A stretch of DNA of 24,114 nucleotides from Planctomycetota bacterium (GTDB taxonomy: Bacteria; Planctomycetota; Planctomycetia; Pirellulales; Pirellulaceae): contig JAJRVM010000091.1 in assembly GCA_024277285.1 (NCBI GenBank), positions 1-24,114 on the forward strand. Reading direction: 5' to 3'. Under the pieces are notes generated by a model. It saw only the letters and a list, made by a program, of their open reading frames with translations, was not told where the DNA came from and searched no databases. The position numbers and the translations under genes were made by a program. This document shows positions 5,387 through 22,880 of the stretch, piece by piece (positions within the stretch are counted from its first letter, which is position 1; each line of letters begins with the position of its first letter).

Positions 5387-5772
5387 CTCGCGCCGCTCCT
5401 CGTAAATGCCATTTGGTGTCGATTGCGAGGCTCGTGGGCCAGGCGATCAGCGTGTTGAGGAACCAAGGGCAGCATGCGTGACAGCAGCAACGGGGCGTGC
5501 CCGACCGCCACAAGCGTGGCGGCGTCATGTGCCGGAAGTTCGGTGACACTTACTAAGGCAAATGGAGTGCCAATCGCCGCTCGGAAGTGGCGAAAATGCG
5601 GCAAACAGGCGGCAACACGGACCAGACCACTTAAAATGAGGAGAGCGGCGTGCCCAGTCCAATCGAGAAAAAAAAGAGGGGCTGGCCGTGTCGCCGAGCG
5701 GGACTGGCGTGGCGTCGGTCGCAGCGGGGCAATATGCCCCGGGCGCGGAATTGTGCCGCGCCGGCGCAGCAT
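5383..5772 (-). CDS. Doubtful 129-residue open frame overlapping the PP2C start
   Basis: This frame ends in TGA that overlaps the PP2C ATG in the ATGA arrangement typical of translationally coupled genes. That is the main reason to list it. The product has a moderately hydrophobic middle but no domain I recognise, and no clear Shine-Dalgarno was found at its ATG. The candidate PP2C promoter at 5557-5572 lies inside it, which argues that it may be non-coding leader. I consider it more likely spurious than real. Confidence 0.25.
   Translation of the reverse strand: MLRRRGTIPRPGHIAPLRPTPRQSRSATRPAPLFFLDWTGHAALLILSGLVRVAACLPHFRHFRAAIGTPFALVSVTELPAHDAATLVAVGHAPLLLSRMLPLVPQHADRLAHEPRNRHQMAFTRSGAR
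5557..5572 (-). promoter_or_regulatory. Candidate sigma-54 promoter of the PP2C gene
   Basis: On the minus strand the site reads TGGCACTCCATTTGCC, that is TGGCAC-N5-TTGC with the required 10-base gap between GG and GC. It deviates from consensus only at the less conserved G after TGGCAC and the final W. The predicted start is near 5546, leaving a leader of about 160 bases before the PP2C ATG. Confidence 0.5.
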
Positions 5773-6223
5773 CAGCGAATTCCGTCCGCTCGCCGCGTGG
5801 AACTCGCATCAGCAGACCCTACCTGGGCTAGTGGCCGACACGACGCTTTTCGTTCCAGATTGACGCGTGCTGTGTTCGAGTAGGAGTAAACCGTTGTCTC
5901 GTCGCAGCGTTATCCAACAATCGCTATTCGTTGCCCCTCATCTTCTTTGCCTTTGCTGCCCTCACGCTCATGGATGCCGCTCTGGCTGTTCTCGTTGGAG
6001 GGCAAAGAAAATGACGGGCAAAAAAGAAGTATGATGCCAGCCTCGTTGCTGCCCGCATGATGCCTGACTTCGACTGCTAGCTGCTTGCCTGCGCGCCCCA
6101 CATCGACCACGTGCTCGCGGCACAATAACGGGATAAACAGAACCACGACAGCTCAGCAAGCTTTTGACAGCCCAGGCCCTACCGCCCTTATCGGTAGACC
6201 TGCCAAGCTGCGAAATCGATCGA
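5773..6223. other. Gene-poor spacer downstream of the response regulator
   Basis: No frame in this stretch shows a recognisable domain or a convincing ribosome-binding site. It contains an imperfect long inverted repeat (5939-6034) described separately. I see no clear terminator for the two-component operon. Confidence 0.5.
5939..6034. repeat. Imperfect ~100-bp inverted repeat (REP/MITE-like)
   Basis: The left arm CATCTTCTTTGCC...TGCCCTC (5939-5963) is mirrored by the right arm GAGGGCAAAG...GGGCAAAAAAGAAGTATG (5998-6034), around a spacer of roughly 35 bases. The right arm itself contains two tandem GGGCAAA(G/A)AA units. No coding capacity is evident. The arrangement fits a small non-autonomous palindromic element, but there is no second copy in the window to define its ends. 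Confidence 0.4.
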
Positions 6224-9354: not shown

Positions 9355-9867
9355 ATGGGGGAAATCAAGGTGCCGGATTTTTGGACGGAGAGTTTTCTGG
9401 GAACGCGCGGATCCTTCATGCTGGACCTGGTCAGCCTGGCGATGGTGGGCATCGTGCTGGTCCTGGCAGTCAGCGTTTTTTTGGTGCGGTGGCGGCGCGC
9501 TTATGCGGTCCACAAGTGGTGCCAATTGACGCTGGCCGCGTTGCTGGCGGTCACGGTGACCTTATTCGAGATCGATGTCCGCTTCATCACGGACTGGCAA
9601 GCGCGCGCCGAACTGTCACCCTATTTCGAGCGCGACAGGTGGAATGCTGTTTATACCTGCCTGTCGGTACATCTATGCTTTGCGATCCCGACTGCGCTGC
9701 TGTGGTTCGCCGTGATTCTGCAGGCACTGCGGCGTTTCCCCCGTCCGCCCGTACCCGGTCGCCACAGTCGCCACCACGTATTCTGGGGCAGGCTTGCCGC
9801 CTGTGGCATGGTCATGACCGCCGTGACCGGATGGCTGTTCTACTGGCTAGCCTTCGTTGCGGTGTGA
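9355..9867 (+). CDS. DUF420/CtaM-like four-helix membrane protein
   Basis: This 170-residue integral membrane protein has hydrophobic helices at about 22-44, 56-76, 100-124 and 145-167. Conserved-looking polar residues sit at membrane edges: His53 in AVHKW, Asp74, His106, and a His-rich loop GRHSRHH before the last helix. Size and pattern match the DUF420 family, to which the cytochrome oxidase assembly factor CtaM (YozB) belongs; the oxidase link is family knowledge, not shown here. I choose ATG 9355 because PDFWTESFLGTRGSFMLD looks like the native N-terminus. An upstream TTG at 9292 is in frame, and no strong Shine-Dalgarno distinguishes them. Its 3' end overlaps convergent leuA by 21 bases. 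Confidence 0.75.
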   Translation: MGEIKVPDFWTESFLGTRGSFMLDLVSLAMVGIVLVLAVSVFLVRWRRAYAVHKWCQLTLAALLAVTVTLFEIDVRFITDWQARAELSPYFERDRWNAVYTCLSVHLCFAIPTALLWFAVILQALRRFPRPPVPGRHSRHHVFWGRLAACGMVMTAVTGWLFYWLAFVAV

Positions 9868-11385
9868 AGGATTGACGATGATGCGATTGACCGCATTCAG
9901 CAGTGCCTTGACGGTCGCTTCGACGGTATCGGTCGATACGCCGAGGCCTCGGTACGAGCGACCATCGTGTTCGATTTCGAGTGACGCTTCCCCCAGGGCG
10001 TCTTGGCCGATCGTGGCGCTGCGCACCTGATAGTCTTTGCAGACCAATTCGAGTCCCGTGATTTGCTCGACAGCCCGGAACGCCGCATCGATGGGGCCGT
10101 CGCCGGTAGTGACTTCCTTGGTGATCGCTTCGCCACCGTTCTGGAGCGTCATTTTGACATACGGCACGTCGCCGGTGCGTGAAACGACTTCAAAACTGAC
10201 CAGCTTCCAATGTTCTTGAGTGGCGCCGTGCAACAGCTGTTCGATCAACGCGACAATATCGCCGTCGTAGATCTCTTTCTTCTTGTCGGCCAACGCCTTG
10301 AAATCTTCGAAGACCTGTTGCAGTTGTTCGCCGGTGAGTCGAAACCCGAGTGTCTTGGCGCGATCGGCCAGCGCGGCGCGACCGCTGTGCTTGCCCAGCA
10401 CCAGGTCGGTTTGAGCGAAGCCAACGTCCTCGGGACGCATGATCTCGTACGTCGTTCGTTCCTTGAGCATGCCATCCTGGTGGATACCGGCCTCGTGCGC
10501 AAACGCATTGCGGCCGACGATCGCCTTGTTACGTTGGACCTTCAGGCCAGTGATTCCCGAAACCAGGCGACTGGTCGGGACGAGTCGCCTGGTTTCAATG
10601 TTGGTATCAAACGGGTAAACGTCGCGTCGCGTCCGCATCGCCATGACAACTTCTTCGAGCGAACAGTTGCCGGCGCGTTCGCCGAGTCCATTGATGGTGC
10701 ATTCGATTTGACCGGCACCGTTGGAGACGGCGGCCAGACTGTTGGCTACCGCCAAGCCGAGATCGTTGTGACAGTGGATGCTGATGACCGCTTGGTCGAT
10801 GTTCGGAACACGATTGATCAGCATGGCAATCGTGTCTCCCATCTGATTTGGAGTGGCGTAACCGACCGTATCGGGAATATTGACGGTCGTGGCGCCGGCG
10901 TCGATGGCCGCTTCGACAACGCGACACAGAAAATCATGCTCGGTGCGTACCGCATCTTCGGGTGAGAATTCGATGTCGTCGCAGTAGCTTGCCGCCAGCT
11001 TGACGCTTTCAACCGCGCGCGCCACGATCTCGTCACACGACATCTTCAATTTGAATTCGCGGTGGATCGCGCTGGTCGCCAGGAACACGTGGATGCGTGC
11101 TCGTTCGGCGACCTTTAACGCCTCCCAAGCTCGTTCAATATCTTTCGTGTTGGAGCGAGCCAATCCACACACGGTGGTGTTGCGGATCGCGCCGGCAATC
11201 TCCCGGACCGCTTCAAAGTCACCCTGTGAGGCGATCGGGAATCCAGCTTCGAGCACATCGACGCCGAGGTCTTGCAGCGATTGAGCGATTTCCAGTTTTT
11301 CGGTCAGATTCATGCTGGCGCCCGGCGATTGTTCGCCATCGCGCAGTGTCGTGTCGAAAATAGTAATGCGGCGTCGCTCGGTCAT
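9847..11385 (-). CDS. leuA: 2-Isopropylmalate synthase
   Basis: This 512-residue enzyme condenses acetyl-CoA with 2-ketoisovalerate to give 2-isopropylmalate, the first committed step of leucine synthesis. The catalytic TIM barrel starts with DTTLRDGEQSPGASM (about 11-25). Metal ligands His204 and His206 lie in ISIHCHNDLG, and the NGLGERAGNCSLEEV stretch follows. The C-terminal LeuA allosteric domain (about 390-505) is complete, so leucine feedback inhibition is expected. The ATG at 11385 has AAGGG eight bases upstream; 27 further in-frame codons upstream show no family similarity. It stands alone, without leuBCD nearby. A leucine-rich leader peptide and attenuator hairpin precede it, indicating control by leucine supply. 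Confidence 0.97.
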   Translation of the reverse strand: MTERRRITIFDTTLRDGEQSPGASMNLTEKLEIAQSLQDLGVDVLEAGFPIASQGDFEAVREIAGAIRNTTVCGLARSNTKDIERAWEALKVAERARIHVFLATSAIHREFKLKMSCDEIVARAVESVKLAASYCDDIEFSPEDAVRTEHDFLCRVVEAAIDAGATTVNIPDTVGYATPNQMGDTIAMLINRVPNIDQAVISIHCHNDLGLAVANSLAAVSNGAGQIECTINGLGERAGNCSLEEVVMAMRTRRDVYPFDTNIETRRLVPTSRLVSGITGLKVQRNKAIVGRNAFAHEAGIHQDGMLKERTTYEIMRPEDVGFAQTDLVLGKHSGRAALADRAKTLGFRLTGEQLQQVFEDFKALADKKKEIYDGDIVALIEQLLHGATQEHWKLVSFEVVSRTGDVPYVKMTLQNGGEAITKEVTTGDGPIDAAFRAVEQITGLELVCKDYQVRSATIGQDALGEASLEIEHDGRSYRGLGVSTDTVEATVKALLNAVNRIIVNPSHRNEG

Positions 11386-11552: not shown

Positions 11553-11590
11553 AAAAAAGCCCCGAGGCAAAGTACAGGCCTCGGGGCTTT
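11553..11590 (-). terminator. Attenuator terminator in the leuA leader
   Basis: A perfect 13-bp stem pairs AAAGCCCCGAGGC (11556-11568) with GCCTCGGGGCTTT (11578-11590) around a 9-base loop. On the minus strand it is followed by an uninterrupted run of T to 11553, making a strong intrinsic terminator. It lies about 170 bases before the leuA ATG and 37 bases after the leader-peptide stop, so it would end transcription before the structural gene. Confidence 0.85.
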
Positions 11591-11641
11591 GGGTTATAAG
11601 CGTCTGGCAACGACAATAAACCTTCCCTACGGCCTGCCTTT
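11569..11641 (-). promoter_or_regulatory. Predicted antiterminator pairing of the leu attenuator
   Basis: The last codons of the leader peptide contain AAAGGCAGGCC (11641-11631 on the minus strand). This can pair with GGCCTGTACTTT (11580-11569), using six contiguous G-C-rich pairs plus four A-T/G-C pairs. The second strand overlaps the 5' arm and loop of the terminator, so the two structures exclude each other. A ribosome at the stop codon would mask AAAGGCAGGCC; one stalled at the early Leu codons would leave it free. Confidence 0.65.
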
Positions 11642-11686
11642 AGCAAGCAACAGCGACAACGGGAGAAGGTAAAGTCTGGTTGCCAT
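11627..11686 (-). CDS. leuL: Leucine-rich leader peptide of leuA attenuation
   Basis: The 19-residue frame reads MATRLYLLPLSLLLAKGRP and ends in TAG. Seven of residues 5-14 are leucine, using CTT, CTC, TTG and CTG codons. It lies directly upstream of a terminator hairpin and of leuA, the arrangement of enterobacterial leuL. No strong Shine-Dalgarno is seen, and ACCACT precedes the ATG. Its sequence need not be conserved; its job would be to stall ribosomes when charged leucyl-tRNA is scarce. It is too short for ordinary gene finders. The symbol is assigned by position and composition. Confidence 0.75.
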   Translation of the reverse strand: MATRLYLLPLSLLLAKGRP

Positions 11687-11807: not shown

Positions 11808-11836
11808 ACTCTACGGTACGAAACGCTTGAGGTCAA
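11808..11836 (-). promoter_or_regulatory. Candidate sigma-70 promoter of the leu leader
   Basis: Minus-strand TTGACC (11836-11831) is separated by 17 bases from TAGAGT (11813-11808). The -35 half lies inside an 8-bp inverted repeat ACGCTTGA-GG-TCAAGCGT (11823-11840) that could be an operator. The predicted start near 11800 would give a leader RNA of about 115 bases before the leucine-rich peptide. Confidence 0.45.
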
Positions 11837-11927: not shown

Positions 11928-13391
11928 TCAAGGTGCCTCGTCGGAGTTGGCGCGGCCATTAAGGACGCGGCTGATGCGCGGGCGTGCCGTGGGTGGCCGT
12001 TCGGGGCCCGCTGCCGCAGGCTTCTTTGCCGGACGCTGTTCGACGCAATAGAGGTTGTCGTAGGTGCGGATGAAAATCTGACCCTCGGAAAAGGCCAATG
12101 ACGCCCCCATGCGTTTCTTGATCGGATTCTGAGCCAAGACCAGGCACTCGGTCATGTCCGGTTTCAGGACGAATGTGGTGCCGTGCGAGTCATTGACGTA
12201 GATGCGCTGGTCGGCATAGCACATGCTGCTCCACGAGGTGGCGACCCCCAAACGGTGCTTCCACAGGATGTCGCCCGTCGCCAGTTCCATGCACCAGGCT
12301 ATTCCCTGCTCATTGAGTACGTACACGCAGTCGTCGACAACGATCCCCGAACCGATCCGTTGGGGAGTTTTTTCGGCGTGGAGCCACAGGCGGCGCGTGG
12401 CCGTGACATCTCCCTGCCCTCCAAGGGAGACGGCCAACGTGGGACCATGGTTGCCGGACATCGCCACCACCACGCTCGCGGTCTCCACTCGATCGGCAAT
12501 CGCCTCGGCGGACCCGGCAACACTACGGTTGGCAACACTATCAGCGAGAACACTACCGCTGGGGCCGGTTGAGGAGGTGGGAACCGAATGGGGCGAATCG
12601 CCGCAAATCGGGCTGGTGTAAACCAGCTTTCCCAGGCCAGCACATGACCACTGCGGTTGACCGGTGAGCGGATCGAGCGCGAAGAGTTTCGTCGGCAGGC
12701 TGACCAGCAGCGAGTCCGTGTCGCCGTGTGACACGACCAGCGGCGTGCTCCATGAACCAACGTAATCGTCCGGCTTTTGTGAGGCCATGCCAGGCAGTTG
12801 TCGGCGCCAACGCTGTGTGCCGGTGCGTTTGTCGACGGCCAACATAAAACTATGCACACCGGGGCCACAATTCAAAACGACCAAGTCTTGGTAAATCACG
12901 GGACTCGAGGCGCTGCCCCAAATGTGTTTGAATCGGCCCAAGTCTTCTTGCCAAAGCCGTGCGCCATCGAGGTCGTACGCAAACAGGCCCGCCGACCCGT
13001 GCCAGACGACAACGCGTTGGCCATCGGAAACCGGGGACGACGAGCAGTAGGGATTGGCGACATGGGTCGATTCTTCTTGGGCATAATCGACATCATGCCT
13101 CCACAGCATGGTCCCGTCTTTTCGGTTGAGGCAGAGAAGGGTGCGGCGGTGGCCGTTTCGACTGGCGCAACTGACAAAGACGCGGTTGCCCACGATGATC
13201 GGTGTGGCGTTGCCGGGACCTGGGAGCTTAGCGACCCATTCGATGTTTTCACTGGCGGACCAATTGAGTGGAAAGCCGGTGTCGCGGCTATAGCCATTTG
13301 CCGTTGGGCCGCGCCAGGCGGGCCAATCTTCGGCCTGCAGTGGCAGCACTGCTAGCAACAGCAACGTGGCAACAAGCGGTATGTGGCGCAT
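11928..13391 (-). CDS. Secreted PQQ-type beta-propeller protein
   Basis: This 487-residue protein has a Sec signal peptide (MRHIPLVATLLLLAVLPLQA, cleavage after LQA) followed by EDWPAWRGPTANG. That opening is typical of planctomycete outer-membrane-assembly or alcohol-dehydrogenase-like propellers annotated as BamB/PQQ-binding-like. Repeated blades of the form LLCLNRKDGTMLWRHD, LFAYDLDGARLWQEDL, LAVDKRTGTQRWRRQL and LFALDPLTGQPQW each place Asp-x-x-Gly before Trp. No catalytic residues of a quinoprotein dehydrogenase or other enzyme can be assigned, so a structural or binding role is likelier. The ATG at 13391 is chosen because the signal peptide begins there; an upstream GTG at 13460 would bury it. 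A Shine-Dalgarno is not apparent. The C-terminal tail is Arg/Pro/Ala rich. Confidence 0.88.
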   Translation of the reverse strand: MRHIPLVATLLLLAVLPLQAEDWPAWRGPTANGYSRDTGFPLNWSASENIEWVAKLPGPGNATPIIVGNRVFVSCASRNGHRRTLLCLNRKDGTMLWRHDVDYAQEESTHVANPYCSSSPVSDGQRVVVWHGSAGLFAYDLDGARLWQEDLGRFKHIWGSASSPVIYQDLVVLNCGPGVHSFMLAVDKRTGTQRWRRQLPGMASQKPDDYVGSWSTPLVVSHGDTDSLLVSLPTKLFALDPLTGQPQWSCAGLGKLVYTSPICGDSPHSVPTSSTGPSGSVLADSVANRSVAGSAEAIADRVETASVVVAMSGNHGPTLAVSLGGQGDVTATRRLWLHAEKTPQRIGSGIVVDDCVYVLNEQGIAWCMELATGDILWKHRLGVATSWSSMCYADQRIYVNDSHGTTFVLKPDMTECLVLAQNPIKKRMGASLAFSEGQIFIRTYDNLYCVEQRPAKKPAAAGPERPPTARPRISRVLNGRANSDEAP

Positions 13392-13515
13392 AGGTATTAT
13401 TCGATCACTGTGTATGGCGCGATGACGCAATTCGTATGGGAAGAACGTCGGGCGATGCACGGTGCGACGTCAAAACCCCATGCAATACGGTCTCCTGTCG
13501 GCGAGATATCCATGG

Positions 13516-22019: not shown

Positions 22020-22880
22020 GGTTGGGTTGGCTATGGAACGCCCCTCACCGCTGAAGGTGGTGGGAGAGAGGGGGGAAGGCGTTATTGGTACCGGCACCGT
22101 GTTTATCTCGCGCGGTTGGGGCGGTTCTTGTCGAGGGATCCGGTGGGGTATGAATCTAGGGAATACTCACTCTATGCCTACGCGAGATCTGCCCCTGTCT
22201 TCCTGCTTGATTCACTCGGTTTCGAGGCTTGCAAGCCTCACTGGAACAACGATGGTTGCTTTCGCATTTCGGATTTTCGGTTCGTAGGTACGAGCTGGGG
22301 AGAGTATGCCCATCCGTTCGTTGGAGATAGGTGGTGGATTCGAGGCGCCGCGTACATTTCAGGTGACGTTTACATACAGCTCATCATCAATGACAAAGTA
22401 GAATGTTGCTGCCCAAAACGATACGTTGAAGTGCACGGAGGACTAGATGTTCACTTGGCAATAGAGTACTGGAAGGTGGCGGAAAGATGGCAAATCCTCC
22501 AGAGGGTTGGCGAGAGCCTCTTTTTCCCTTGGTGGGCCAAGGCCGTTCTGTTTGGCGACAATATCGTGGGTTTGAATAACCTCATCAAAAAGAGCCTTCC
22601 GGAAGGAGTCGTTGATCTGACTGCGGCGGGTGTGTGTGCTTCTGGGCTGAATAGCATCGGTTTCGGGTACCGCAACATCACTCTGAATGTCAAGTTCGGC
22701 CCCGCCCCTGGCAGAAGCAATCGGCACGATGATCCAACGAATATCAACGTCGACATTGGTGATGCCATTGGCGACCTCCGATGGTGTCCTGGATCTGGAT
22801 TGGAGCTTTACAATTCCGATATCCCGTCGGGAGGGATTCCAGCCCGTTACCGTCCACCAATTATTGGCCCGAAATGGTAG
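22020..22880 (+). pseudogene. 5'-truncated RHS-repeat C-terminal fragment (orphan RHS tip)
   Basis: The frame opens after a TGA at 22017 and contains YRHRVYLARLGRFLSRDPVGYESREYSLYAY, with LLDSLGF a little further on. This is the hallmark end of the RHS repeat-associated core, after which each RHS protein carries a variable tail. The tail here (about 210 residues) has ECCCPKRYVEVHGG, WQILQRVGE and IPARYRPPIIGPKW and matches no toxin domain I know. No methionine codon occurs from the RHS motif to the stop; the possible starts are TTG/GTG without a ribosome-binding site. Upstream sequence lacks the YD repeats. It is therefore an orphan tip or decayed gene, lower in G+C than its neighbours. A small membrane protein follows within 21 bases. 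Confidence 0.72.

Follow-up and report, generated by a model that had tools for sequence, protein, structure and literature searches.

The window, a stretch of 24,114 nt from a Planctomycetota bacterium, carries on its minus strand leuA, whose product, 2-isopropylmalate synthase, scores above cut-off for both NF002086 and TIGR00973. Its likely start is the ATG at 11385 (the longest ORF runs from 11466). Upstream of leuA we found a leader ORF of 20 codons including the stop, followed by an intrinsic terminator that ends 167 nt before the gene. The features at this locus are the following:

9847..11385, minus strand: leuA, 2-isopropylmalate synthase
11553..11590, minus strand: intrinsic terminator, a 13-bp hairpin (11590-11556) and T run, seen in the fold and in covariation among relatives
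11576..11595, minus strand: putative antiterminator 3' strand (segment 3), overlapping the terminator's 5' arm
11619..11635, minus strand: putative antiterminator 5' strand (segment 2), which spans the stop codon and is proposed from a sequence that recurs around the stop among relatives and from energy tests
11627..11686, minus strand: leader peptide ORF, MATRLYLLPLSLLLAKGRP, with stop TAG at 11629-11627
11632..11648, minus strand: possible pre-emptor hairpin (1:2), GCUUGCU/GGCAGGC, weak, which would hide the antiterminator strand
11645..11674, minus strand: regulatory Leu codons 5, 7, 8, 10, 12, 13 and 14 (CTT CTT CTC TTG CTG TTG CTT)
11808..11836, minus strand: possible promoter TTGACC-N17-TAGAGT, a pattern match only (9/12)

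The 19-residue peptide on the minus strand (11686..11627) has seven leucines at positions 5-14, as an earlier sequence-only reading of this DNA had described. That reading's 13-bp terminator with a T run was also borne out: 11590-11578 pairs with 11568-11556 in 13 perfect base pairs (-24.7 kcal/mol), an energy matched by 0 of 200 shuffles, and the T run reaches 11553. The window has a short ORF rich in the residue of the pathway and then an intrinsic terminator ahead of the structural gene, the arrangement that marks attenuators, and on sequence grounds the order and spacing of the elements match those of a classical attenuator. Promoter-like sites of the grade listed above occur three times in the region, compared with 1.3 in shuffles. 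No leuB, leuC or leuD was recognised beside leuA when the ORF list was read. Elsewhere in the window, the ORF at 22116-22880 has a start that, judged from the letters, resembles the end of an RHS-repeat core.

Conservation of the leader and its alternative pairings

We took 80 leuA loci from named genome records and searched them with a joint detector for a Leu-rich ORF plus a terminator, with thresholds fixed after a first view of the leaders. The detector fired upstream of 58 of the 80 leuA genes (L009 in, L076 out); 800 randomised regions gave no hit, and the other strand of the same loci gave one in 1,289,665 nt. A looser script combined with inspection also gave 58/80, L076 replacing L009. 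The sequence-only reading had named just this search for a Leu-rich micro-ORF and terminator before related leuA genes as a check on its proposal, and the check came out in its favour. On inspection we removed L009, L018 and L075 from the hits of the looser script, and they count as leaderless in the codon, tRNA and antiterminator-energy tallies. The element was not detected in 22 of the 80 loci, two of which (L054, L063) are among the four with less than 500 nt of upstream sequence (L019, L054, L063, L066). By their record titles, the nearest relatives are planctomycetes; the window was anticipated to be a notable planctomycete case, and it is a planctomycete case, but not an isolated one. 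The record of L013 is titled Alphaproteobacteria, yet its LeuA groups among planctomycetes, and it is probably mislabelled. In L012, a cobalamin riboswitch lies downstream of leuA (5691-5945).

For the alignment we used 43 of 59 leaders, window included, and left out 16 with different spacing or stop (L012, L016, L021, L024, L026, L028-L031, L034, L041, L046-L049, L052). L030 belongs to the cultured Rhodopirellula rubra. At the terminator, 89.7% of the aligned cells are paired, nine pairs have changed on both sides, and the covariation score exceeds that of all 500 shuffles. A conserved 5' RNA before leuA might also be a riboswitch or T-box that senses leucine or tRNA without translation. We consider this extremely improbable: an Rfam scan for leader RNAs and T-boxes gave nothing at gathering threshold in the window or, across the 16 related loci scanned, at any leader, and the alignment shows no conserved block besides the ORF, the stop region and the hairpin.

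We scanned genomes with a covariance model built from the 43 leaders, 392 from the phylum and 396 from an order. The model matched in 72/392 (E ≤ 1e-5) and 182/396 (E ≤ 1e-7), tallies that include bare terminators and are not attenuator counts, since weak matches can be bare terminators (L189-L191 have no leader). We opened 30 loci of the phylum, 28 with leuA, and at least two of these loci came from the first set (L081, L082). Loci numbered after L081 were found by the model; their tRNA status provides an independent test, which their leaders, stops, spacing and antiterminators do not.

The sequence-only reading had also predicted a pairing that competes with the terminator. Such a pairing exists, but its 5' strand has the stop codon at its centre and is not AAAGGCAGGCC set against the loop; we replaced the exact pairing with AAAGGCAGGCC by the stop-straddling one, which is the better form. 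In the window, AGGCC/U/GGG/GGUU (within 11635-11619) pairs with AACC/CCC/G/GGCCU (within 11595-11576), and in RNA truncated at the 5' arm of the terminator, the best fold joins bases around the peptide stop to that arm. Taken alone, the window's antiterminator is no better than shuffles (52/200 as good for a 76-nt stretch, 54/200 for duplex energy), and its reality therefore rests on conservation. We ran the energy test locus by locus, skipping one locus with an unread base. Of the 58 loci that leuA homology had brought in, 35 have an antiterminator superior to shuffled segment 2 at p ≤ 0.05 (16 at p ≤ 0.01), which at the level of the family points to an antiterminator that would exclude the terminator. 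Among 109 further loci the figures are 78 and 53, biased in that these loci were chosen by a model containing the antiterminator sequence. L059 is an example, with GGCCTTAGGGTTCG opposite CGAACCCCGAGGCC in 13/14 pairs. On the 43-leader alignment, 67.9% of the antiterminator cells are paired; of the covariation that the earlier reading had proposed to look for, the terminator's was found, whereas that of the antiterminator is not above shuffles on this fixed alignment. The pre-emptor folds no better than 66 of 200 shuffles of its 34-nt stretch, and no single register of it is conserved among relatives.

An ordinary terminator of an upstream transcript, combined with a chance Leu-rich ORF, would fit both the antiterminator that is unremarkable in the window alone and the upstream ORF at 11928-13460, on the same strand as leuA. 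However, the combination of ORF and terminator stands before 58/80 leuA genes and almost never elsewhere in those loci, and we regard this explanation as very unlikely.

Proposed mechanism and leader codon choice

Conservation in 58/80 loci, covariation of the terminator and an antiterminator in 35/58 together support the leucine attenuator before leuA that the sequence-only reading had proposed. The window's element is very probably a ribosome-mediated transcription attenuator of leuA. We infer that the ORF is translated and that the switch, the antiterminator and the response to leucine work as follows. RNA polymerase would transcribe the leader as a ribosome translates the 19-residue peptide. 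When Leu-tRNA is ample, the ribosome would reach the UAG stop and cover the surrounding bases; segment 2, being covered, could not pair with segment 3, so that the terminator would form and transcription would end before leuA. When Leu-tRNA is scarce, the ribosome would stall at the Leu codons, which lie 16-45 nt ahead of the stop, leaving segment 2 free to pair with the terminator's 5' arm, and leuA would be transcribed.

The leader stop is TAG in 43/59 leaders of set 1, compared with 30/80 leuA stops (p = 4e-5), and in 94/109 model-found leaders, where the stop codon is not independent of the model. The rare codon CTA makes up 88 of 406 leader Leu codons (last 20 codons before the stop) and 43 of 2078 in leuA; at further loci it makes up 116/462 in leaders and 29/2123 in leuA. 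Attenuators are held to favour codons whose tRNA discharges first, which in E. coli is the case for CUA (PMC1183508, in the part available), and the CTA richness of the family agrees with this idea. The window's leader has neither CTA nor TTA, and the absence of CTA, enriched in the family, counts against the attenuator reading here.

tRNA-Leu(UAA) genes downstream of leuA

In 15 of the 58 leader loci of set 1, a tRNA-Leu(UAA) gene in the same orientation follows leuA at a distance of up to 1,700 nt (L005-L008, L039, L059, L060, L064, L066-L069, L073, L078, L080); the same linkage was seen in 36 further loci and in none of the 15 leaderless loci with 1.6 kb or more of sequence after leuA. At L080, from the cultured Lacipirellula limnantheis, the tRNA is 1.6 kb away. 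TTA occurs in 15/15 linked set-1 leaders and in 4/43 unlinked ones. We next put this rule to the test with loci picked out by the leader model, which is blind to tRNA; exact repeats of set 1 were removed, and near relatives remain. TTA was present in 18/19 linked and 9/39 unlinked loci of a first further set (p = 3e-7) and in 14/16 and 7/25 of a second (p = 3e-4). Pooled, 51 of 155 attenuated leuA loci are linked (within 1,750 nt), with TTA in 47/51 compared with 20/104 unlinked loci (p = 5e-19). The linked leaders without TTA are L117, L143, L276 and L286, and L011 and L251, which have TTA and a tRNA 3.5 kb away, were scored as unlinked. The other five Leu codons showed no association with linkage in 113 loci (p from 0.21 to 1). 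The mean number of TTA codons per leader is 1.96 where the tRNA lies within 350 nt (n = 27) and 0.92 where it is farther away (n = 24; p = 1.5e-4).

The gap between leuA and the tRNA is at most 311 nt in 22 of 35 linked loci. The other 13 gaps are all longer than 500 nt, and in each an ORF of at least 70 codons runs on the opposite strand (ORFs called mechanically), which makes co-transcription doubtful there. A script for terminators detected none in any of the 35 leuA-tRNA intervals, nor any within 80 nt beyond the tRNA, and is uninformative on co-transcription. A similarity search of 13 linked genomes gave 51 matches; the best 30 of the 51 comprise 13 UAA, 12 CAA and 4 UAG tRNAs and one match that is no tRNA. 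Among these 30, tRNA-Leu(UAA) occurs once per genome, always as the leuA-linked copy.

These loci are related, and linkage changes at least 13 times on their tree. Independent contrasts between tRNA and UUA gave 11 pairs, with means of 5.0 agreeing, 0.4 opposing and 5.6 tied, which is not significant (median p = 0.125). A correlated-evolution likelihood test on 114 rows gave a likelihood ratio of 41.4, reached in 0 of 60 simulations, and tests of this kind can overstate few events.

In part of the family, the attenuator might also control its own decoder, in an isoacceptor-specific leader-peptide feedback on a tRNA gene, which we put forward tentatively as a serious possibility somewhat short of probable. 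The leader's UUA would be read only by tRNA-Leu(UAA), whose gene sits downstream of leuA. If charged tRNA-Leu(UAA) ran low, whether for want of leucine or of the tRNA itself, the ribosome would stall at UUA, the terminator would be bypassed, and both leucine synthesis and tRNA-Leu(UAA) would rise. The window has neither a linked tRNA nor UUA, and its copy is a family member without this extension. The association of tRNA-Leu(UAA) with UUA would directly test the theory that leader codon choice follows isoacceptor supply. Under that theory, in the part of PMC1183508 available, UUA is predicted to serve badly as a regulatory codon in E. coli; in this family, leaders contain it where the controlled gene has the matching tRNA gene as its neighbour.

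Known systems and other pathways

In the enteric leu leader of E. coli and Salmonella, a Leu-rich leader and a terminator precede leuA, and the window's element resembles it in this. It differs in giving no Rfam match and in that leuB, leuC and leuD were not recognised beside the window's leuA. No paper among the matches listed in our literature search concerned amino-acid attenuators in Planctomycetes, with most subscription journals and the work of Lopatovskaya et al. 2010, reportedly a survey of attenuation, outside its coverage; likewise, with most subscription journals outside coverage, no paper among the matches listed concerned a tRNA gene under leader-peptide attenuator control. The mechanism is classical and not certain to be new in Planctomycetes. 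The finding would carry classical attenuation, in several amino acid pathways, into a phylum for which the matches listed held no such report.

As far as the accessible part of PMC1183508 goes, the rare CUA is favoured in the enteric leu attenuator, as it is in most of the planctomycete family but not in the window, and UUA, used by some planctomycete relatives, is predicted to make the E. coli leu attenuator less sensitive. Two systems from other phyla can be likened by description only, from partial texts: the actinobacterial attenuators of amino acid genes (PMC1262725), likewise leader-peptide control outside Proteobacteria, and the Leu-rich peptide of Staphylococcus aureus (PMC5794164), likewise a Leu-rich leader, which attenuates branched-chain amino acid genes. 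A 2010 study states, in the part available, that, apart from ermC, leader peptide systems had to its authors' knowledge been demonstrated only for Proteobacteria and Actinobacteria until its own Firmicutes case (PMC2965389). The main text of PMC4833913, as far as available, counts leader genes in Planctomycetes and leaves leuA unmentioned. A table in PMC2864571, seen in part, lists a motif under the name Rhodopirellula-1.

Similar elements precede other genes. Eight stand before citramalate synthase (TIGR00977; L111, L175, L176, L178, L181, L182, L184, L186), the proteins being 53-100% identical to that of L111; an Ile/Val-rich frame is present in 7/8 (in L182 by reading), and the script showed none for L178. 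Another eight stand before DAHP synthase (L112, L173, L174, L177, L179, L183, L185, L192), with a clear Phe/Tyr/Trp-rich frame in 7/8 (in L112 by reading) and a doubtful one in L192. At L280 and L298, Leu leaders precede the other, non-orthologous type of 2-isopropylmalate synthase (PRK03739, TIGR00970). As read from these frames and the genes behind them, the leader amino acid tracks the pathway, being Ile/Val, aromatic or Leu according to the gene.

This bears on whether the peptide's sequence, rather than codon supply, might stall the ribosome, as in a nascent-peptide arrest leader. Some C-terminal residues do recur (e.g. RP, GC, RS), but the end that recurs is the stretch occupied by the antiterminator strand, and the peptides otherwise vary while Leu persists. 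Synonymous choice is skewed to CTA and TTA, and the leader amino acid follows the pathway; we consider arrest highly improbable, more so than an ordinary terminator and less so than a riboswitch or T-box. Two further aromatic leaders (L187, L188) lie before proteins that, judged from the letters, resemble another type of DAHP synthase, and at L296 an aromatic-rich leader precedes a DAHP synthase identified by reading the protein.
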